From Sedimentisphaerales bacterium (GTDB lineage: Bacteria; Planctomycetota; Phycisphaerae; Sedimentisphaerales; SM23-30), in contig JANQJS010000003.1 in assembly GCA_028281535.1 (NCBI GenBank), forward strand, positions 186,001-250,000: DNA of 64,000 nucleotides, given 5' to 3'. The notes beneath the pieces were generated by a model. The model had not been told where the DNA came from. It saw only the letters and a list, made by a program, of their open reading frames with translations, and did not search any database. The translations under genes and the position numbers were made by a program. Position 1 is the stretch's first letter. Every line of letters starts with the position of its first letter. Below are positions 3,547-24,950 of the stretch, one piece after another.

Positions 3547-6500
3547 ATGATTCGAAATAAAAAAATTATATTATTTGGACTGTTTGTTTGGATGTTCTTT
3601 AGTCATTCGTTATATGCTCTTAGTACGGTATATGTTTCACCTACAGGAAATAATGATACTGGTGATGGTACAATTGGTAATCCATATGCAACAATTAAAA
3701 AAGGAATAATTCAAGTAGATGCTGGTGGTACGGTTATACTACTTGAAGGCACTTACACTGGTAGTGGAAATACAGGGCTAACCCTGCAAACTAAAATGCT
3801 TACATTACAAAGTGTGACCCCTGAAGATCCAGACGTTGTCGCAAAAACAGTCATTAATTGTAGTGGAAATCAGGTTGGAGGAGGAGAAGCAAGATTTATC
3901 AAATTACTTAATACAGATGCCGTAATTGACGGACTAACTGTTACCAATGGGTTTTTTAAAAATATAGATCGTGACACGATAATGTGCGAGAAAAAATCAC
4001 CAACCATTCGCAATTGTATCTTTTTTGGAAATTACACTAATTCAAATGCCATTATCTCCATTTTATCTAGCGATGTAAATATTGAAAAATGTGAGTTTTA
4101 TAACAATAATGCTGTCCGGGCAGTAATAGAAATTGATAATTTTCCTCCAATTGCAAATAAATCTGATGTTTTAATTAGTGAGTGTTTGATTGAAAATAAT
4201 ATGACTACAGCGATATATTCTATCAATTCAAGTAGTCTAAAAATTATTAATTCAATTATTAACTCTAATTCTAAATCAGTAGATGATGGTGGAGCCATAC
4301 GTTATCGAAGTACATCTGGCAGTGGCTTGAGCGTATTAAATTGTACAATTACAAATAATATTTCAAGAAGAGGGGGGGGGCTTTTTTTATATCAAGGGAC
4401 TGCAAATGTAGAGAATACAATATTTTGGGGAAATCAGGCTATCAGAGGTTTGGGTAATCAAGTTTATCTTGGAATTGTAACTCCGACTTTAAATGGAGAT
4501 TTTAATATTAGTCAAGGAGGCCAAGGCGATATTCATGTTGAGTCTGGTACATTGAATTGGGGGGCAAATAACTTAATTTTAGGCCCACAATTTTCGATGA
4601 CAGGTGATTTCCACATTTTACCTTCTTCTCCTTGTATTGACATGGGAAATAATACTCCTGTTGGCGGATTGCCTACAAGTGATTTTGAAGGGGTTGCACG
4701 TAATCTTGATGGTGATAATGATCAAGTAGCTGTCGTTGATATTGGAGCACACGAGTTTATTAATTCTGTCCCCATAATTTCTACGTCTCCCAAGATTATA
4801 CAATTTTTTACTCCTTATATTGGTTGGGAAATAAATGAAACACAAAAAGTAAAAATTTCTAATTCTGGAACGGGTACTTTAAATTGGACATTGTCACATA
4901 CAGCTTCTTGGTTAAATGCGTCTTTAACCAGTGGGCAATCTAGCGGTGAGATTGACGAAGTGATTCTTAGCGTACCTACTGTCAAGGGGCTAGATTATGG
5001 TGTATATTCTACAAACATAGTTATTAGCGATGCTACAGCAGCGAATAACTCTATTGATATTAAAGTTGTATTATATATAGGGCGTCTCAAACCAGATGAT
5101 GAAAATGAATTTGATGTGTTGTTTATGCAACCAAGTAATAATTTGGGATTAAAATGGAATGAGCCTGATCAAATTAACTTTCAAAATGTTTTAACTCAAA
5201 AAATGACTAGTAGTGTCGAATATGCTAACTCGACTATGAGTAATTCAGAATTATCACAAAGGTATAACTTGGTAAAGGTAGGGTTTGTATATAAATATTT
5301 CGATAAGTATGTTGACCCGATTGGGTCAAAACTTTTGCAACAAATAAACAACTCCTCTGATGGTTCTATGGATGAAATTTATATTATCCAGGATATATAT
5401 AGTGCTGATTTTGGCGCAATACATAAACCAGGCTTTGGTGGAGGATATCAGTGGGGGGGAGAATTTGCCGCTATAGGCATGGAAGTAGATAGTGTTTTTT
5501 CACATGAGGCCGGTCATTGGTTAGGAGCAGGTCATTGTGATAATTTTAATTTTGAAATTAATGGGCAATTGTACCAAACGATAATGGGAGGAAGTTCAGA
5601 GTGTAACAACTATGGTACTATAATTAATTATTTTTCTAATCCTGATATTATTTACAATGGTATAGTAATTGGCGACCAGAATCATAACAGTGCTGCAATA
5701 GTTCGGAACAATGCAATTCACAAATCAAATGTAAGGACACGAGCAACAAAAAGAGTTATTTATGTTGATCAAAATGCATCAGGTTTTAACGATGGGTCTT
5801 CCTGGCAGGACGCTTTTACAGAATTAAGCGAGGCTTTATATGAATACGATCTCAAAGCAGCTCGTGATGGATTGAATAAAGTGGGCCACAAAGATGAAAT
5901 TTGGGTAGCTCAAGGGATATATACACCTGGCCTTACTGAGAATGAATCTTTCCAATTAGTTCAAGGAGTCTCCATTTATGGTGGTTTTAATGGTACTGAA
6001 ACCTCATTAGATCAAAGAAATCCTTTCATTAATCAAACCATTCTGAGTGGTGATATCGGTACTCCAGGAGATAATAGTGACAATAGCTATCATGTTGTAA
6101 CAGGTCCAGATGATGGGTTCAGAGTTTTACATCACGAAGCATTTCTTGATGGTGTAACGATTACTGGAGGCAATGCCAATGGCCCATTATCAGATCAACA
6201 AAATGGTGGTGGAATTTATTTAACCTCAACATCACCGACGATTCAAAATTGTATCATAAAAAATAATAGTGCGTTAAATCATGGTGGTGGTATTTATGCT
6301 AAAGATACAGATGTTGAATTATTTAATTCTATTTTTCATGATAATGCTGCAACAAATGGTGGTGCCATTTATGTTGAAGGTAATGCCGAAGTAAGCCATC
6401 CATGGATCATCAATTGCACCATCGCAAACAATAATGCTAGCACCACTGGTGGCGGTATTTGCTTAGATAATAATACCCAGGCTCGTATTATCAACTCGAT

Positions 6501-8820
6501 TGTAAGAGATAATGTGGCTGTAAATGGATCTGAAATTGCTGTGCTTGATAATGCTTCACCATCTCGTGGTCAGTTCGAATATAATAATATCAAGGGAGAT
6601 CAATCTGGCATATATTTAGCAACGAATGCGATGCTTGATTGGCGCAATGGTAATATTGACAAACTGCCTAATTTTGCTAATCAAGCTAATAGGGATTATC
6701 AGTTGCTGATGGGGTCTTCATGCATAAACGCTGGTTTACCTGGGTTTGGTTACCAAATAAACACCGATATCAAACTGGCCAATCGTATTCAAGCAAGCGG
6801 AATCGATATCGGAGCATATGAGTATGCTGCAGCAAATATTGTTTACAATGAAACACAAAAAACAAGTTACTTGACGATTCAAGCAGCGATTGATGCAGCA
6901 CTTTCAGGTGATGTGATTAAAGCATTTCCTGGCATTTATACAGAGAAAGTAGATTTCAAAGGTAAAGCAATTATGCTGCAGTCGAATGATCCAACGGATT
7001 TATCTATCGTTGAAAGCACGATCATTTCTCCAGGAAATCCAACAGATCCAAACTCCATTGCGGTAAGCTTCATCACAAATGAAGCCAATAGTGCTGTACT
7101 CAAAGGAGTCACACTTCAAGATTGTTTTATAGGCGTAAAGTGCCAGGGCGCTTCACCAACTTTAACAAATAATAAATTGTTAGGTGGCATTCAGGCTGCA
7201 ATCCAATTAAATAATTCTTCCGCAAAAATCAAAAACAACTTAATTCTTAATGCCAATAATGGTATTGAGAGCATTAATTCTCAAAATGTACTTGTTCAGA
7301 ATAATACCATTGTAGGTCATTCTGTTGGTGTGAGTGTGTCTCAAGTGGGGCAATCACCAACGGTTAACAATTGTATCTTTTATAACAATACAGATGATCT
7401 CCATAATGCAAATACCACCTACAGTAGAGTGTCCGATTTAATTGCTGATCCAGGAACAGGAAATATTGATGGTGCCCCACAATTTGTAGATGCTGCAAAT
7501 GATGACTATCATTTATTGATCAATTCTCCATGTATCGAAGCCGGTGATCCTGCATTTGTTTTAGCTAATGAATTAGATATCGATGGTGTTGTCAGGTTAG
7601 CAGGCGACATTGTTGATATGGGAGCCGATGAATTTAATAAAGTTTATACGCAAAATCAAAAGGTGTGGTTCAATACGATTCAATCTGCCATTGATAGTCC
7701 AAATACAACAGCGGGTGAAGTGGTTTTTGTATATCCAGGCACATATAATGAATCAATTAACTTTAATGCTAAAGATATTACTGTAAAAAGTATTGATCCT
7801 TTGGATCCATCGATTGTAAAACAAACTATAATCTCAGGTAGTAGTTTGTATGCTGTTGTGTTTAATTCTATGGAAAGTAGTGATGCTGTTTTACAGGGTT
7901 TTACTCTATCTGGATCAAGAGCTGCAATTTTCTGTGGAACCAGTGGTACGTCGCCTATTATAAAAAACAATATATTTATTACTGATAAAGCTACTGTGGT
8001 AACTGGACAAATAGGTGTTTCAGTTGGTGATGGTTCTTCACCAAATATCTTGGAAAACACATTTAATAGCTTACCTGGGAATGGTATTGAAATAGTTTAT
8101 GCATCGCCTCGTATCGCAAATAATATAATCAACAATTGTAATATTGGAATAAATTTTGAGGAATTTGGATATGGTGGCCCAGCAACACATATTGAAAATA
8201 ATAGTATTATAAATTGTCATGAAGGAATTAAAGATATATCAATTTATAGGACACCTCCTATAATCACAAACTGTTTGTTCTATAATAATAGTGATGATCT
8301 TATAGCGGTTGACCCTTTAAGTAGTAGCATAATTCCTTCGCCAGTAGCTACATACTCTCGAGTAAGTAATCTATCCCAAGATCCTGGTACAGGCAATATT
8401 GATGCATTACCAAAGTTTGCAGATTTTGAAAAATTCCATTTAGATGCTAACTCGCCTTGTATTGATGCTGGTGATCCTGCATATGTTCCAGCTGCAGGTG
8501 AGGTGGATATAGATTCACAAATACGGAAAGTAGGAGCGAGCGTTGACATCGGAGCGGATGAAACAAATTATGTTTGCCAAACATGTTTGGGTGATATTAC
8601 AGGTGGAAGTGTTGCTGGTTTGGGAGATAATTATATTGATATGAATGATTATAATGTACTTTTGGCCATACTGACATATTCAGACTCAATTCCAATAGAT
8701 TTTTCTCGTCCTTATTGGCATCCATGTGCAGACCTTAATCAGGATGGAATAGTTGACCAAATAGATTTCAACTACTTAACGTCTCTTTTAACTTATATAG
8801 GTCCTACAGCTTGCCCATAA
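3547..8820 (+). CDS. Giant secreted protein: beta-helix repeats, BACON-like domain, metzincin protease, dockerin
   Basis: 1757 residues with a signal peptide (about 1-25). Order: parallel beta-helix 1 (about 30-405, opening VYVSPTGNNDTGDG and closing with a choice-of-anchor-Q-like SPCIDMGN...DIGAHEF); a BACON-like Ig domain (about 415-505, GTGTLNWTLSHTASWL); a metallopeptidase segment (about 515-735); then three further beta-helix blocks, each ending SPCI(D/E)AGDPA...D(I/M)GADE; and a C-terminal dockerin (DLNQDGIVDQIDFNYL). The protease segment has HEAGHWLGAGH at residues 653-663, exactly the HExxHxxGxxH zinc motif of metzincins, and IMGG about 17 residues later as a possible Met-turn. A strong AGGAAAGG ribosome site precedes the ATG. 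The beta-helix parts suggest polysaccharide binding or a surface structure; the protease target is unknown. A G8 run at 4373-4380 is a slippage-prone site. Confidence 0.85.
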   Translation: MIRNKKIILFGLFVWMFFSHSLYALSTVYVSPTGNNDTGDGTIGNPYATIKKGIIQVDAGGTVILLEGTYTGSGNTGLTLQTKMLTLQSVTPEDPDVVAKTVINCSGNQVGGGEARFIKLLNTDAVIDGLTVTNGFFKNIDRDTIMCEKKSPTIRNCIFFGNYTNSNAIISILSSDVNIEKCEFYNNNAVRAVIEIDNFPPIANKSDVLISECLIENNMTTAIYSINSSSLKIINSIINSNSKSVDDGGAIRYRSTSGSGLSVLNCTITNNISRRGGGLFLYQGTANVENTIFWGNQAIRGLGNQVYLGIVTPTLNGDFNISQGGQGDIHVESGTLNWGANNLILGPQFSMTGDFHILPSSPCIDMGNNTPVGGLPTSDFEGVARNLDGDNDQVAVVDIGAHEFINSVPIISTSPKIIQFFTPYIGWEINETQKVKISNSGTGTLNWTLSHTASWLNASLTSGQSSGEIDEVILSVPTVKGLDYGVYSTNIVISDATAANNSIDIKVVLYIGRLKPDDENEFDVLFMQPSNNLGLKWNEPDQINFQNVLTQKMTSSVEYANSTMSNSELSQRYNLVKVGFVYKYFDKYVDPIGSKLLQQINNSSDGSMDEIYIIQDIYSADFGAIHKPGFGGGYQWGGEFAAIGMEVDSVFSHEAGHWLGAGHCDNFNFEINGQLYQTIMGGSSECNNYGTIINYFSNPDIIYNGIVIGDQNHNSAAIVRNNAIHKSNVRTRATKRVIYVDQNASGFNDGSSWQDAFTELSEALYEYDLKAARDGLNKVGHKDEIWVAQGIYTPGLTENESFQLVQGVSIYGGFNGTETSLDQRNPFINQTILSGDIGTPGDNSDNSYHVVTGPDDGFRVLHHEAFLDGVTITGGNANGPLSDQQNGGGIYLTSTSPTIQNCIIKNNSALNHGGGIYAKDTDVELFNSIFHDNAATNGGAIYVEGNAEVSHPWIINCTIANNNASTTGGGICLDNNTQARIINSIVRDNVAVNGSEIAVLDNASPSRGQFEYNNIKGDQSGIYLATNAMLDWRNGNIDKLPNFANQANRDYQLLMGSSCINAGLPGFGYQINTDIKLANRIQASGIDIGAYEYAAANIVYNETQKTSYLTIQAAIDAALSGDVIKAFPGIYTEKVDFKGKAIMLQSNDPTDLSIVESTIISPGNPTDPNSIAVSFITNEANSAVLKGVTLQDCFIGVKCQGASPTLTNNKLLGGIQAAIQLNNSSAKIKNNLILNANNGIESINSQNVLVQNNTIVGHSVGVSVSQVGQSPTVNNCIFYNNTDDLHNANTTYSRVSDLIADPGTGNIDGAPQFVDAANDDYHLLINSPCIEAGDPAFVLANELDIDGVVRLAGDIVDMGADEFNKVYTQNQKVWFNTIQSAIDSPNTTAGEVVFVYPGTYNESINFNAKDITVKSIDPLDPSIVKQTIISGSSLYAVVFNSMESSDAVLQGFTLSGSRAAIFCGTSGTSPIIKNNIFITDKATVVTGQIGVSVGDGSSPNILENTFNSLPGNGIEIVYASPRIANNIINNCNIGINFEEFGYGGPATHIENNSIINCHEGIKDISIYRTPPIITNCLFYNNSDDLIAVDPLSSSIIPSPVATYSRVSNLSQDPGTGNIDALPKFADFEKFHLDANSPCIDAGDPAYVPAAGEVDIDSQIRKVGASVDIGADETNYVCQTCLGDITGGSVAGLGDNYIDMNDYNVLLAILTYSDSIPIDFSRPYWHPCADLNQDGIVDQIDFNYLTSLLTYIGPTACP

Positions 8821-17937: not shown

Positions 17938-18681
17938 CTATTTTGAAGACAGTTTGGATATGGAGGTAATCAGGCTTGCGACTGTCTTTGTATGAGAGTC
18001 ATCAGATATTTCTTTGTTTTGTTCCATATACTCTTGAAGGCTAAGTATATGGATCATGCTTGCCTTGACAGCTTCTTTTCCTACCAGGCTTTCGGAAGCA
18101 ATCAGGGTGGATAGTTTGCTTAAGTTTATTAGTCGATCTTTAAGGAATTGTGTTTCGCGGCCAAGTTCTAGACCTCTTATAGAAATGGCTTTACCGATAC
18201 TGTATGTAATCCATCCTGTTGTAGCGCCGCTAAAAACTAAGGCCCAAACATTTGAGTACTTTTCGGTAACATTATAGATCGTTGCGGCGATGCCCCATGT
18301 GACTATTGGGATAATCGCACTTAGTGCAAAGAAGAAAATTACCCAGCGTGAGTTTGATTTTTCTCTTACCTCTGAATTATTTCTTAATGCTGTGAGCGTT
18401 TCTTGTAAGTGTTTAAGGCTATCAAGATAATTAAAATCGTTTAGCTGAACGATATCAATTGAGTCTTTGACGATATGCTTGGTCTCTTCTGGTTTTGATA
18501 CAAAAAATCGGTATATTACATACGCTGCAAAAAACGCAAGAATAGTCACGAGTGTAGATAGGATCGAATGCCGATCTGAAATAAAAAATTCTGATATAAT
18601 GGCTAGCAATGCGAAAAATATAAGAAACAAAATTAAATCAATTCTTGTTATAAAAAAATTCTTAATGTTTTTCTTCATCAT
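17938..18681 (-). CDS. Hypothetical four-helix membrane protein
   Basis: 247 residues with four predicted membrane segments in two hairpins: LILFLIFFALLAIISEFF, LVTILAFFAAYVIYRFFV, then WVIFFFALSAIIPIVTWGIA and VWALVFSGATTGWITYSIG. The cytoplasmic parts between and after them are helical and charged. Not a recognised family. It lies between the housekeeping typA and the divergently transcribed DUF4041 nuclease gene. It is AT-rich and has no obvious ribosome binding site, so the exact start (two adjacent ATGs) is uncertain. It may belong to the accessory island that begins here. Confidence 0.65.
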   Translation of the reverse strand: MMKKNIKNFFITRIDLILFLIFFALLAIISEFFISDRHSILSTLVTILAFFAAYVIYRFFVSKPEETKHIVKDSIDIVQLNDFNYLDSLKHLQETLTALRNNSEVREKSNSRWVIFFFALSAIIPIVTWGIAATIYNVTEKYSNVWALVFSGATTGWITYSIGKAISIRGLELGRETQFLKDRLINLSKLSTLIASESLVGKEAVKASMIHILSLQEYMEQNKEISDDSHTKTVASLITSISKLSSK

Positions 18682-19036: not shown

Positions 19037-20419
19037 ATGATTGGTTTTTTATGGGCTGCTGTCATCATTCTATGCATTATTTCTGGTGTATTTATCGGTT
19101 TATTTATAGATGCTAAATCTAAGTATGGTGATACGTATGAGCGATTTAAAGATGTGATCGACATCGAGAAAGAAAAGACTAAAGCTCAAAAGTCATATGA
19201 CAAATTCATTAAAAAGCAAAAAGAGATCGAAAGCGAATTAATCAATCAATATAACAAGAAAAAGGATATTTATGACAAGCTATCCGAAGAGTTAACGGTT
19301 TTGGAAGAGCATATGGAGTTCATAGAGTGTGGTATGTATGATCCTCATTTTGATTTTGATACTTCTGAAAAATATAAAGATGAAATAAATGAAAATAGGA
19401 TAAAGCAAAAAAATATGCTTAAAAAGAAAACAGCCGCTACTTGTCATACAGAATGGACGGTAGGAGGTAGTAAGGCAGAGGGGAAAAAGATGACCGATCG
19501 TAATATTCGGTTAATGCTTAGAGCGTTCAATAATGAGTGTGATGCCGACTTGCTTAAAGTTACTTGGAATAATGTTGATAAGATGGAGAAGAGGATTGTT
19601 AAGGCGTTTGAAGCCATTAACAAACTCGGTGAGCCAAACTCGATCGCTATTTCTAATGTTTATTTAAGGCTGAAATTAGATGAGTTGTTTTTAACGCATG
19701 AGTATCGTGAAAAAGTGCAGGAAGAAAAAGAAGAGCAGCGTCGAATAAAAGAACAGATGCGAGAAGAAGAAAAAGTACAAAGAGAAATTGAAAAAGCTAA
19801 ATTAGCTGCCGAACGAGAGGAAAATCAATACGAAGCTGCTCTGGTAAAAGCTAAAGAAGAATTGAAAAATACTCATGGCGAAGAACTATCATCACTGGAA
19901 AAACAGATTAAATTGTTAGAAGAAAAGCTAGAAGAGGCTCATGAAAGAAAAGATCGAGCTTTATCACGTGCTCAAATGACAAAATCTGGACATGTTTATG
20001 TGATTTCAAATATTGGATCTTTTGGAGAAGATGTTTATAAGATTGGTATGACAAGAAGGCTAGAACCACTTGATCGAGTTAAAGAGCTGGGTGACGCTTC
20101 AGTGCCATTTAGTTTTGATGTTCATGCCATGATATATTCAGATAATGCACCAGAGCTAGAGGCAAAGTTGCATAATACCTTTAATGATTATCGATTGAAT
20201 TTAATCAATAATCGCAAAGAATTTTTTAATGTTACACTAAAAGAAATTGAACAGATCGTATTAAAAGATCATGGTCAAATAGAATTTACAAAATTAGCAG
20301 AAGCCAAAGAGTATAGAGAATCTGTGTCGAAACGGAATGGTAACATACATGAAATTAAGCAAATGAAAGAGCCGGAAGTTCAACCTCGTATACAAGAAAC
20401 TTTTCCGAGCTCATTGTAA
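19037..20419 (+). CDS. Membrane-anchored DUF4041 + GIY-YIG nuclease (SNIPE-like anti-phage protein)
   Basis: 460 residues. Residues about 4-25 (FLWAAVIILCIISGVFIGLF) are one membrane anchor. A Lys/Glu-rich coiled coil and the DUF4041 region (about 45-225; RLMLRAFNNECDADLLKVTW) follow, then a second coiled coil (about 225-310). The C-terminus is a T5orf172-type GIY-YIG nuclease: HVYVIS (Y321), VYKIGMT (Y334-G337), Arg in LDRVKEL, a Glu in ELEAKLH (about 375) and KEFFNV. The DUF4041 plus GIY-YIG protein SNIPE has been described as an inner-membrane nuclease that cuts phage DNA on entry; the same domain order here makes that role likely but unproven. GGGAGG lies 7 nt before ATG. The next gene starts 15 nt downstream. 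Confidence 0.8.
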   Translation: MIGFLWAAVIILCIISGVFIGLFIDAKSKYGDTYERFKDVIDIEKEKTKAQKSYDKFIKKQKEIESELINQYNKKKDIYDKLSEELTVLEEHMEFIECGMYDPHFDFDTSEKYKDEINENRIKQKNMLKKKTAATCHTEWTVGGSKAEGKKMTDRNIRLMLRAFNNECDADLLKVTWNNVDKMEKRIVKAFEAINKLGEPNSIAISNVYLRLKLDELFLTHEYREKVQEEKEEQRRIKEQMREEEKVQREIEKAKLAAEREENQYEAALVKAKEELKNTHGEELSSLEKQIKLLEEKLEEAHERKDRALSRAQMTKSGHVYVISNIGSFGEDVYKIGMTRRLEPLDRVKELGDASVPFSFDVHAMIYSDNAPELEAKLHNTFNDYRLNLINNRKEFFNVTLKEIEQIVLKDHGQIEFTKLAEAKEYRESVSKRNGNIHEIKQMKEPEVQPRIQETFPSSL

Positions 20420-20434
20420 GTTGGAGGATTAAAG

Positions 20435-21541
20435 GTGTCTGATCCCTTTAATTGCTCTTTCTTAAAGTGTTGTGAGGTATTAATGTCTAAACAGAGTTCT
20501 ATATGGGATAAAATATTTATCGAACTTGCTCAACGAGCAATTAGGAAGGTTCACTATGATTATCAAAGGCTTTCATCAGGAAATACCTTTCATCATTCTA
20601 GCATATCAAATTTAAATATAGGTAAAGGTATAGAATATGCGTTTGAGACTGATGTTTTATTCGCAATAAATCAAGAATTTAGTGATTCTGGGTATACGTC
20701 TGGAAGATTAGTGGAAGGTGATAAAAAGAAAGATCAACCAGATCAGAGGTTTTATCGTATCTATAGAGAATATGCTTATGCCGACCTCAAGCCTAAAACA
20801 AAATTAAATCGTTCCTTTAAGTTAGATCTATATATTCAAAGATATAATCCTCTTGATACAAATGAAACTCATGATCCTGCTATTATCGAAGCAAAAAAAG
20901 TAAGGACAATTACGATAAATGGTGAGGGGGAAGAAGAAATAAATTGTAATGTCTCTGAAGTTGTAAAAGACGTCATAAAGTTATATAAATATTCAAATGG
21001 GAAAAACTGTCGAAAATATCTTTTGCTTTGGAATTGGATTGAGAAAGATGATCGTAGATATGAGGATGGACAGAAGCCGACAGATGTTCAAGATGAAATT
21101 CTTGAAGGAATGAAACTCAAAGGCGTGATTTCAGATTTAATAGGGCTTAAGTCGAAAAGAAGTGATAGCGAAGATTATAAAAAAGCAATTAAGAAAACTC
21201 AAAACAAAATAGAAAGTGTAGTTGCTAAGTATTATGGTAAGGGAAAAGTATCGCTGAAGAGTGCTCTTAAAGAATTAGTAGATGAGATTAGGCCATTAGA
21301 TAATAAGTACAAGGGTAGAGTAGGTGAAATTAAGGAGAATATAAAAATAAAAATTACGGATGTTGTTGAAATGATAGATTTAATTAAGACATTCAAGATA
21401 AATAAAAATAATCTAGTAGTTAAAGAAACTAGGTGGTTCCCCCTTGATTGGCAGGGAAGGGGGGCTAGCAATTACATTCCTTCTAAATCAATTCGTTGGT
21501 TATGGGTTTCTTTGTTCGAAATTGAATTTCCCAAAAGGTAA
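20435..21541 (+). CDS. Unrecognised protein with PD-(D/E)XK-like nuclease signature
   Basis: 368 residues from GTG 20435 (GGAGG 7 nt upstream), or 352 from ATG 20483 (GAGGT 5 nt upstream); both sites are plausible. No named family was recognised. Residues about 60-160 run GIEYAFETDVLFAIN ... FKLDLYIQRY ... PAIIEAKKVR. This places Glu, then Asp131, then Glu152-x-Lys154 in the order and context (beta-strand, then ExK on the next strand) of PD-(D/E)XK nucleases; this is an inference from motif. The C-terminal third is Lys-rich and helical. It is co-transcribed with the SNIPE-like gene (15-nt gap). The two may be a two-component defence unit. AT-rich codon use suggests acquisition. Confidence 0.65.
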   Translation: MSDPFNCSFLKCCEVLMSKQSSIWDKIFIELAQRAIRKVHYDYQRLSSGNTFHHSSISNLNIGKGIEYAFETDVLFAINQEFSDSGYTSGRLVEGDKKKDQPDQRFYRIYREYAYADLKPKTKLNRSFKLDLYIQRYNPLDTNETHDPAIIEAKKVRTITINGEGEEEINCNVSEVVKDVIKLYKYSNGKNCRKYLLLWNWIEKDDRRYEDGQKPTDVQDEILEGMKLKGVISDLIGLKSKRSDSEDYKKAIKKTQNKIESVVAKYYGKGKVSLKSALKELVDEIRPLDNKYKGRVGEIKENIKIKITDVVEMIDLIKTFKINKNNLVVKETRWFPLDWQGRGASNYIPSKSIRWLWVSLFEIEFPKR

Positions 21542-22083: not shown

Positions 22084-22203
22084 TTTTAACCACAGATTGC
22101 GCAGATGAACACAGATTTAAAAGGCAAGATATTTTAGTTTTAAATAACAAAAGAGAAATGGTTTTAATTCAATCTGTGCTAATCTGTGAAATCTGTGGTT
22201 AGA
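22084..22203 (+). repeat. AACCACAGATT...AATCTGTGGTT dispersed intergenic repeat
   Basis: Left end AACCACAGATTGCGCAGATG with AACACAGATT; right end AATCTGTGCTAATCTGTG with AAATCTGTGGTT. Together they form a 120-nt imperfect inverted repeat. This kind of element is known from many environmental bacterial genomes (general knowledge). Solo right-end fragments (ATCTGTGGTTAGAAAA) recur at about 23394-23409 and 24421-24436, each just after a PEP-CTERM gene. Confidence 0.7.
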
Positions 22204-22214
22204 AATAAAGACAT

Positions 22215-22240
22215 GGATTCCCGCTTTCGCGGGAATGACA
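22215..22240 (+). repeat. ATTCCCGC/GCGGGAAT palindromic repeat
   Basis: GGATTCCCGCTTTCGCGGGA followed by ATGACA, with an 8-bp stem (22217-22224 and 22229-22236). It is a familiar type of small intergenic palindrome in many bacterial genomes (general knowledge). It sits 15 nt after the AACCACAGAT element, so several repeat types are clustered here. Confidence 0.6.
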
Positions 22241-22291
22241 AACGTGTGTGTGTAAACGGATCGAAAGAATCATTAAGAAGAACGTACAGAA

Positions 22292-22434
22292 GGGAGGTGA
22301 TGCGAACTAGATAAAAACGGAGAGTGCTTGATCGGGCTGGGAAAGGGTTTTTGACTCCACTTCCACCTCAGTGGGACGATCAAGCATACATTCGTATGTT
22401 CTAGCGCCGCGACAGGCGTTCGCCTGTTTAAGTT
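22292..22434 (+). other. Structured leader region upstream of PEP-CTERM gene 1
   Basis: TGCTTGATCG (22325-22334) pairs with CGATCAAGCA (22377-22386). CATAC/GTATG (22385-22398) and ACAGGCG/CGCCTGT (22412-22427) follow, then TTTAAGTT (22427-22434). The last two hairpins and TTTAAGTT recur before PEP-CTERM gene 2 at 23433-23489. A strong ribosome-site-like GGGAGG (22292-22297) lies at the left, without a credible ORF behind it. Confidence 0.45.
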
Positions 22435-22618
22435 CTTGGATTTTACAATAACCGCTTCCGCTGAGCGCTACCTCATTGGTGAGACATGTAGATGAGTACT
22501 TTTAATGGGCCAAGGAATTTCCTTGTTTGATTGAGTCTTTTTCTTAGAAATCGATGCTCGACGTTTAGCAAGTAATATGTTCTACTATACGGTAAAGTTA
22601 TAAATAGCTAAATATCAT

Positions 22619-22667
22619 AACGCAGAGAGAGCAGATCTAAGTCGATCGCTTTGTCTGCGTTTTTTTA
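22619..22667 (+). terminator. Attenuator-like terminator just before PEP-CTERM gene 1
   Basis: AACGCAGA (22619-22626) pairs with TCTGCGTT (22654-22661), followed by T6. The ribosome binding site GGAGAAGG and the ATG follow within 25 nt. Either it ends an upstream transcript, or it controls read-through into the gene. Confidence 0.6.
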
Positions 22668-22683
22668 TTTTTGGAGAAGGAAA

Positions 22684-23382
22684 ATGAAAAAGATTTCGAT
22701 TGTGCTTGTGTTATTTATCTTTCTAAGTCAAGCTCCATTAAATGCGTTGCATGTTGGTGATGGAGCGACTCATGTCTTTGATGCTTCAAATCCGATCAAT
22801 GACTCCGTCCTGGCAGACTTTTTTGTAGCGAACCTTCCTGGTACGCATCTCGATATCTTGGATGATGCTTTTATCGATGGTGATGTTCAGTTGCATAATT
22901 TCAGCACTGCGGATATGACGGGTGGTCATATTACAGGCGTCTTCGACACCTTTGATAATTCAAGTGCCAATATCCATGGCGGATTTATTTTCCGGCAAAT
23001 CCAAGTCGCACATGACAGCCAACTCAATATTTGGGGTGGTTCAATCGGAGCTGCTCATGGGGCGCATTTTAATTTTAATATTACCACCCGAAACAATGGC
23101 CGTATTGATATCTATGGCACAGATTTTTCTATTAATGGCCAAAATCTCTCGGATGGTGAAGATTTGCTGAGTCATTCTGTCTTTAATTTTCCGAATAATT
23201 CATTTACCGGCCAGCTCGAAGGCACATTAGCTGACGGTTCTTCATTTGATAATGAATATTTCATTTTTAATTTAGATAATTATGCAGGCACTGCCAACAT
23301 ATATGTTCATATCATCCCTGAGCCTGTTACATCATCGTTGCTTATTTTAGGTGGTATTTCTGTTCTAAGAAGAAGAAAGTAA
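22684..23382 (+). CDS. PEP-CTERM sorting-domain protein 1
   Basis: 232 residues. ATG 22684 is preferred because GGAGAAGG lies 3 nt upstream; an upstream in-frame TTG falls inside the terminator-like stem. The signal peptide (ISIVLVLFIFLSQAPLNA) ends near residue 22. The body is a Gly/Asn/Asp-rich beta-structured domain (GGHITGVFDTFDNSSANIHG). The C-terminus IIPEPVTSSLLILGGISVL plus RRRK is a canonical PEP-CTERM signal: PEP, one membrane helix, basic tail. Such proteins are anchored and then cleaved by exosortase, usually linked to exopolysaccharide. No exosortase gene is in the window. A similar gene lies 277 nt downstream. Confidence 0.85.
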   Translation: MKKISIVLVLFIFLSQAPLNALHVGDGATHVFDASNPINDSVLADFFVANLPGTHLDILDDAFIDGDVQLHNFSTADMTGGHITGVFDTFDNSSANIHGGFIFRQIQVAHDSQLNIWGGSIGAAHGAHFNFNITTRNNGRIDIYGTDFSINGQNLSDGEDLLSHSVFNFPNNSFTGQLEGTLADGSSFDNEYFIFNLDNYAGTANIYVHIIPEPVTSSLLILGGISVLRRRK

Positions 23383-23432
23383 ATTGAGATCTAAATCTGT
23401 GGTTAGAAAAGTTTTAAAGTCTCCATCCCCAT

Positions 23433-23489
23433 TTCATCTTCGATGAACTGAGGCTGCCACCCAGGTGTTTGCCTGCTTGGTTTTAAGTT
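23433..23489 (+). other. Leader hairpins upstream of PEP-CTERM gene 2, related to those of gene 1
   Basis: TTCATC/GATGAA (23433-23447), then CAGGTGTTTGCCTG (23462-23475), then TTTAAGTT (23482-23489). Gene 1 has CAGGCGTTCGCCTG and TTTAAGTT in the same order. The differences are two C-to-T changes and a 6-nt insertion. Confidence 0.45.
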
Positions 23490-23516
23490 GACATCTGATT
23501 TGGCACTTGGTAGATT
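23488..23516 (+). promoter_or_regulatory. Promoter upstream of PEP-CTERM gene 2
   Basis: TTGACA (23488-23493) and TAGATT (23511-23516) with a 17-nt spacer. The predicted start near 23523 is just before the terminator-like stem at 23527. Transcripts would therefore meet an attenuator at once. Confidence 0.5.
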
Positions 23517-23526
23517 AGTGCCATTG

Positions 23527-23583
23527 AGAACCTGAGAGAGAGAATCGGTTGACGCGGATTTTTTCTTTCAGGTTCTTTTTTTA
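23527..23583 (+). terminator. Attenuator-like terminator before PEP-CTERM gene 2
   Basis: AGAACCTGA (23527-23535) pairs with TCAGGTTCT (23568-23576), followed by T6-7. It lies 76 nt before the ATG. The loop begins GAGAGAG, like the loop of the stem before gene 1 (GAGAGCAGATC). Confidence 0.65.
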
Positions 23584-23658
23584 TGCCTATTTTTTGAGTT
23601 CGTTACCAATATTAACATAGCCAGGATGCCAGGGGGGCATTGTAGAGGAGAAAATGTT

Positions 23659-24354
23659 ATGAAATCGCGAATTTTAGCTGCTGTTAGTGTTTTATTATTT
23701 ACGGTGCAAGTCCATGCCACGCAAATTGTTCAAACGGCACCCTATTCGGGTGTTCTTGATATCGCAGATTCGTTCACATTTGACTACTTTGATACGTTAG
23801 GTGGAACGCGCGTTCTTGATTCTGTACAACTAAAAATTACAATGGAAGCCTTATCTGGCGGATTTATTGCAGACAATGATAGTGCACAAACCGCAAATAT
23901 CAATTACGAGTATAGCATTTTGGGAAGTTTGAGTTCCTCTGATGTTTTTATTAGCTCGTCGGTTGGAGCTAAAATTACAGATACGGTTCCATTAGTATTG
24001 GCGGCTGATAATGGTGATGGCACTGGCGTTATTGATAGTAGTGGTCCTGACGGTGCGCTGATCGATTTGACAGGCGAGTCAGATTTTTTTCAATCATTAT
24101 TGACTTCTAGTTTTGGTACTTTTATTGGAACGGGAACGTATGAGATTGATTTAAATACCAGTCGAACATTTAATATTTCCGGTGGAAGTGGCGTCGAAGG
24201 TGGTTTTTCGAACATCGCTGTCGAAGGGGACATTGAAGTGACCTATAATTATCATGTTATTCCTGAGCCTGCAACGTTAAGCATGTTGACTTTAGGCGGT
24301 TTATCTCTCCTGGCAAGACATCGTAAAAGAGCAGGCTCAGTTAAAGCATTTTGA
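23659..24354 (+). CDS. PEP-CTERM sorting-domain protein 2
   Basis: 231 residues from ATG 23659; AGAGGAG lies about 9 nt upstream and an earlier in-frame ATG at 23626 would precede the signal peptide with a polar stretch. The signal (ILAAVSVLLFTVQVHA) is cleaved near residue 19. The body is beta-rich (DSFTFDYFDTLGGTRVLDSV) and resembles choice-of-anchor domains of other PEP-CTERM proteins. The C-terminus VIPEPATLSMLTLGGLSLLA with RHRKR is a canonical PEP-CTERM signal. The tail is 8 residues longer than in gene 1 (ends GSVKAF). Expected to be exported and processed by exosortase. A fragment of the TCTGTGGTT repeat follows the gene. Confidence 0.85.
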   Translation: MKSRILAAVSVLLFTVQVHATQIVQTAPYSGVLDIADSFTFDYFDTLGGTRVLDSVQLKITMEALSGGFIADNDSAQTANINYEYSILGSLSSSDVFISSSVGAKITDTVPLVLAADNGDGTGVIDSSGPDGALIDLTGESDFFQSLLTSSFGTFIGTGTYEIDLNTSRTFNISGGSGVEGGFSNIAVEGDIEVTYNYHVIPEPATLSMLTLGGLSLLARHRKRAGSVKAF

Positions 24355-24441
24355 TTTTGATCTGCGTTCATCTGTGAAACGTGGCCAGCCAATTTATCTC
24401 ACCGTAGCTTTCGTTAGGTGGATCTGTGGTTAGAAAAGAGA

Positions 24442-24475: not shown

Positions 24476-24664
24476 ATGAAGCCAGTTAAAGATAATATTG
24501 CGGACATGATTCATAACCTTCCTGATGATTCGACGGTAGAGGATATTCAATATCATCTCTACGTGCTTGATAAGATCCAGAAAGGCCAAAAGTCGATCAA
24601 AGATGGGCAAGGGATATCGAACGAAGATGCCAAAGCGAGATTGTCTAAATGGCTCGGAAATTAA
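24476..24664 (+). CDS. Antitoxin of a ParE/RelE-type module
   Basis: 62 residues from ATG 24476. The chain is small, charged and helical (DSTVEDIQYHLYVLDKIQKG), and the C-terminus GISNEDAKARLSKWL matches the toxin-binding tail of many RelB/ParD-like antitoxins (for example 'SHEEAKARLSKWL'). It overlaps the start of the toxin reading frame by 16 nt, the usual arrangement. Its -10 element lies 6 nt before the ATG and there is no Shine-Dalgarno, so the mRNA is probably leaderless. Because the toxin frame is broken, this may be an orphaned antitoxin. Confidence 0.75.
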   Translation: MKPVKDNIADMIHNLPDDSTVEDIQYHLYVLDKIQKGQKSIKDGQGISNEDAKARLSKWLGN

Positions 24665-24950
24665 TTTGGTCATCCCAGGCCATACAAGAATCGAAGCCAT
24701 CGCTGAATATATTGCCCGTGATTCCCAATTTTATGCCGAATCGGTTGTTGCTAAACTTTTTCATGCCCCACAAGTCCTTCTAAAATACCCACAAATAGGA
24801 CGTGTTGTTCCCGAACTCAATCAAGACAGCGTTCGAGAAATCTTTGTTTTTCAATTTCGATTGATCTATGAAATTCAACATGAAGACATTCATGTCTTAA
24901 CCATTATCCATGGCAAACGTTTATTCGAAGATGCGTTTAAGTCAGATTAA
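24649..24950 (+). pseudogene. ParE/RelE-type toxin with a one-base frameshift
   Basis: From ATG 24649 the frame reads MARKLIWSSQAIQES, the typical start of this toxin family (MARKLIWSPQAIQDL...). It then runs into unrelated sequence and stops at 24783. One frame back, the protein continues correctly with EAIAEYIARDSQFYAESVVA ... FRLIYEIQHEDIHVLTIIHG to 24950. The switch falls at about 24685-24697, where one missing base (CAAGAA-TCGAAGCC) would restore a single frame of about 100 residues. This is either an inactivating deletion or a sequencing error. No classic -1 slippery heptamer in the right frame is seen. The antitoxin overlaps its start. Confidence 0.75.

Follow-up and report, generated by a model that had tools for sequence, protein, structure and literature searches.

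The locus at positions 19037–21541 of the window (the whole 64,000-nucleotide stretch of DNA that was analysed) comprises a new member of the known single-gene defence family SNIPE, here gene 1, and an orphan operon neighbour, gene 2. SNIPE, a membrane nuclease described only recently, cleaves the DNA of a phage during its entry into the cell (PMC13190303). The probable reading is that gene 1 encodes a SNIPE defence protein and that gene 2 came with it as a passenger on one acquired, A+T-rich segment. The analysis shows directly, for gene 1, the family, the order of the domains and the catalytic residue and, for the pair, the adjacency and the base composition. The features of the locus are as follows.

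19037..20419, + strand: gene 1, SNIPE (PD-Lambda-1) gene, 460 aa (PADLOC, Pfam, alignment with PD-lambda-1 of phage PhiR26_1)
20423..20427, + strand: GGAGG, possible ribosome-binding site, 7 nt before the GTG of gene 2 (read from the sequence)
20435..21541, + strand: gene 2, orphan open reading frame, 368 aa from a GTG start, pI 9.2 (ORF list)
20474..20477, + strand: GAGG, possible ribosome-binding site, 5 nt before the ATG at 20483 (read from the sequence)
20483, + strand: alternative ATG start of gene 2, giving 352 aa, as plausible as the GTG

The gene 1 polypeptide is organized into a membrane anchor (residues 2–26), a coiled coil, DUF4041 (residues 158–213), a second coiled coil and a GIY-YIG-type nuclease (residues 318–408). 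The PADLOC PD-Lambda-1 profile matches it with 590 bits and E=8.8e-178, and the match to the model is full-length, residues 45–441 corresponding to model positions 84–481. Pfam DUF4041 (PF13250) scores 82.1 bits against a cut-off of 27 (E=2.6e-23), and the GIY-YIG-type domain is recognized by the Pfam families MUG113 (5.4e-20) and T5orf172 (6.7e-17). The only N-terminal hydrophobic segment, at about residues 2–26, reaches a Kyte-Doolittle value of 2.75 over 19 residues; a transmembrane N-terminal segment is present in 59% of SNIPE homologues (PMC13190303). A protein of Escherichia phage PhiR26_1 annotated as PD-lambda-1 is 58% identical to gene 1 over 372 residues. Its Glu 414, located in the segment SEDAPSLEKKL, matches the residue of the published E414A change, which abolishes SNIPE defence, as does deletion of DUF4041 (PMC13190303). 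Gene 1 E375 aligns with this glutamate and is invariant across a six-sequence alignment; it is the predicted catalytic glutamate of gene 1 and the counterpart of SNIPE E414. The initial annotation had described gene 1 as SNIPE-like, with one membrane anchor and with DUF4041 and GIY-YIG domains in the SNIPE order. The anchor and the domain list hold, and the family assignment can be put more strongly: by every sequence criterion tested, gene 1 is an intact, ordinary SNIPE.

By analogy with the published SNIPE, the gene 1 protein would be anchored in the inner membrane by its N-terminal helix, with the remainder in the cytoplasm. DUF4041 would touch the tape-measure protein of an incoming siphovirus together with its DNA, and the GIY-YIG domain would cleave the genome of the phage while it is being injected. 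Since one gene sufficed where SNIPE was tested, gene 1 should act alone. SNIPE is already present in planctomycetes and is not new there: DUF4041 occurs in 18 of the 392 genomes surveyed of the phylum Planctomycetota, the source genome included, and the locus adds one intact SNIPE to these. Within the source genome's own family, a search of 12 further genomes found SNIPE in none.

Gene 2 follows on the same strand. The gap of 15 nt originally given between the two genes stands for the GTG start only; from the ATG at 20483, which has its own GAGG, the gap is 63 nt. No terminator-like site was found between the genes. Given the common strand, a gap of 15 or 63 nt and the lack of such a site, a functional operon pair is possible. 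Gene 2 is probably co-transcribed with SNIPE. The G+C content is 34.3% for gene 1 and 32.4% for gene 2, compared with 51.8% for the nearby typA and mostly 36–47% for the other genes of the window. Both genes are thus unusually A+T-rich, which is consistent with their joint acquisition. The genes flanking typA are not conserved within the family.

Several further features lie around the pair. A divergent A+T-rich gene at 17938–18681 encodes a 247-aa membrane protein that matches no family above cut-off and has a faint SLATT-domain match (E=0.53). An inverted repeat with 37-nt arms (ACCACAGATT...) occupies 22084–22204 and belongs to a set of several related copies at 22162–24436, and a ParE-family toxin domain (Pfam PF05016, E=2.6e-12) is encoded at 24567–24950.

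The position of gene 2 beside SNIPE and the basic character of its product could point to a regulator or immunity-like partner, not a nuclease, that shields the host from SNIPE, the more so as SNIPE lacking its membrane anchor is toxic (PMC13190303). However, membrane-localised SNIPE is auto-inhibited and by itself non-toxic (PMC13190303), and a partner of this kind is absent beside most SNIPE genes. A shielding role for gene 2 is highly improbable.

Searches with gene 2 against Pfam, NCBIfam, PADLOC, PHROGs and PDB sequences gave no relevant match. No relatives were found in plasmids and phages, nor in viral contigs and GTDB contigs by searches that reach close relatives only. None was accepted in the 148 nearest genomes, in 392 genomes of the phylum or in 198 of the class, and none was detected anywhere in 50 SNIPE-bearing genomes. 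The same result was obtained with 218 genomes from the phylum of a SNIPE-bearing Tenacibaculum and with 229 from the phylum of a SNIPE-bearing Marinobacterium. Weak matches with E values of 5.6e-4 to 0.07 are partial, most of them lying in the helical C-terminal half, and they were rejected as homologues. As far as sequence comparison reaches, gene 2 is a one-of-a-kind orphan among the databases and genomes sampled.

The proposal that gene 2 encodes a second nuclease was based on Asp131, Glu152 and Lys154, which are present exactly at these positions as D131...E152-x-K154. The spacing of 21 residues in D...ExK and the hydrophobic flanks are shared with the PD-(D/E)XK superfamily; a difference is that gene 2 matches none of the profiles of its member families. 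By eye, the strand with D131 is followed by the ExK strand, a helix around residues 173–188 and a hydrophobic strand around 195–202, an order that appears to suit the PD-(D/E)XK core. The PD-(D/E)XK-like context claimed for the motif was not confirmed: the strict D...ExK pattern occurs by chance at about 4%, in 15 of 382 open reading frames of 300–450 aa and in 82 of 2000 shuffled versions of the gene 2 protein, and no profile library backs a nuclease. AlphaFold models calculated without an alignment have a mean pLDDT of 33 for the full-length protein and 34 for residues 17–214, and both are unusable for judging the alpha-beta-beta-beta-alpha-beta core fold of PD-(D/E)XK nucleases. A PDB fold search with the model of residues 17–214 returned nothing at E<=0.001, a result that is meaningless at a pLDDT of 34. 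A nuclease identity for gene 2 is plausible, with the chances about evenly balanced, and a PD-(D/E)XK-like DNA-cutting protein of a defence system or mobile element is the most likely single guess.

Conservation of the pairing was assessed on SNIPE loci collected from three sources (viral contigs, GTDB contigs and planctomycete genomes), which form 112 clusters at 90% identity. In 109 of these, the window's own locus included, at least 500 nt are available downstream. A same-strand open reading frame of at least 90 aa lies within 150 nt of SNIPE at 51 of the 109 loci and within 50 nt at 22, some of these frames being probably spurious. Apart from the window's own locus, none of the 109 non-redundant loci has a detectable gene 2 relative downstream of SNIPE. 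At the sensitivity of the methods used, gene 2 is no conserved SNIPE partner. The search for a conserved neighbourhood, named beforehand as the refuting test, came out against the pairing of genes 1 and 2, and the initial annotation's view of a SNIPE paired with a second nuclease as one system gains nothing from the 50 SNIPE-bearing genomes or the other sampled planctomycetes. Fast evolution of gene 2, combined with the limited reach of single-sequence searches, could also account for the missing adjacency.

These data bear on a two-gene SNIPE variant, in which gene 2 would be a PD-(D/E)XK-type nuclease that joins SNIPE in attacking phage DNA as it enters, for instance by breaking down the ends that SNIPE cleavage leaves. 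The close same-strand spacing, the low G+C content common to both genes and the placing of D131...E152-x-K154 between predicted strands, ahead of a helix and a strand, would fit such a variant, as would the nuclease-like genes of other families found directly downstream at other SNIPE loci. Against it stand the chance frequency of the motif among comparable frames, the lack of profile or structure support and the failure to find gene 2 relatives at other SNIPE loci. A two-nuclease SNIPE variant at this locus is possible and not supported, and a joint action of this kind on phage DNA is unlikely.

The nuclease-family genes directly downstream of other SNIPE genes belong to mutually different families, namely SNase (locus L044), HSDR_N (L110) and HNH_2 (L120); at a fourth locus (L178), an HNH_3 match lies below its cut-off. 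A locus resembling that of the window is L177, from another planctomycete genome, where a PD-(D/E)XK-like open reading frame of 164 aa (5172–5666) likewise lies closely downstream, 18 nt behind SNIPE. It differs from the window locus in that this SNIPE is in a prophage, and no similarity to gene 2 could be detected in the protein encoded behind it. The sole relative found of the L177 frame, 34% identical, is at 8172–8675 of L184, where it adjoins a HARE-HTH-like frame (recognized by eye) and not SNIPE. Homology of gene 2 with the L177 and L184 nuclease-like proteins was rejected at an hhalign probability of 0.2%; pairwise scores with these two proteins and with that of L110 lie inside the shuffled range, which led to rejection for all three and counts against the two-gene variant. 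The strict motif occurs in 5 of 31 downstream frames of 150–400 aa and in 49 of 1216 overall, a post hoc test on small counts that include gene 2. The nuclease-like downstream genes are explained as well by a common defence island. It is quite unlikely that the locus is a SNIPE operon with two nucleases, where a fast-diverging PD-(D/E)XK-type partner helps to destroy incoming phage DNA and is replaced elsewhere by functionally equivalent, unrelated nucleases directly downstream. If gene 2 did act with SNIPE, the one-gene picture of SNIPE would have to change; the present evidence falls short of that.

SNIPE genes next to one another were also encountered. In another planctomycete genome, two complete SNIPE genes that differ from each other stand in direct tandem (L176, 325–2952); the second begins immediately behind the stop codon of its predecessor, and both encode DUF4041 and a GIY-YIG-type domain. 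Two viral contigs (L041 and L042) have a second SNIPE-like gene behind SNIPE.

Gene 2 may also be an independent defence or mobile-element gene, a nuclease or not, that works alone beside SNIPE in a small defence island. Besides the HNH and SNase genes, the recognisable neighbours of SNIPE are highly varied and include recombinases, an integrase, an N6/N4 methylase, a helicase, MazG and an ion channel. In annotated records of phages, plasmids and E. coli, SNIPE has no recurrent partner; its neighbours there include phage replication genes, an integrase, a NINE protein, BrnT/BrnA and RadC. An orphan that has no conserved partner agrees with this picture. However, the scanned genes around the pair contain no second recognisable defence gene, and the spacing to SNIPE is directly operon-like. 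An independent function of this kind is quite possible, though short of probable. Within the preferred reading of a SNIPE gene and a passenger, gene 2 would most likely be a separately evolved component of the acquired A+T-rich segment.

Compared with the known SNIPE and PD-lambda-1 proteins, gene 1 has a shorter and dissimilar N-terminal region, as is usual across the family, and it resides on a planctomycete contig beside an orphan gene, with no evident prophage. It shares with them the domain order, the N-terminal membrane anchor, DUF4041, the GIY-YIG-type nuclease and the catalytic glutamate.
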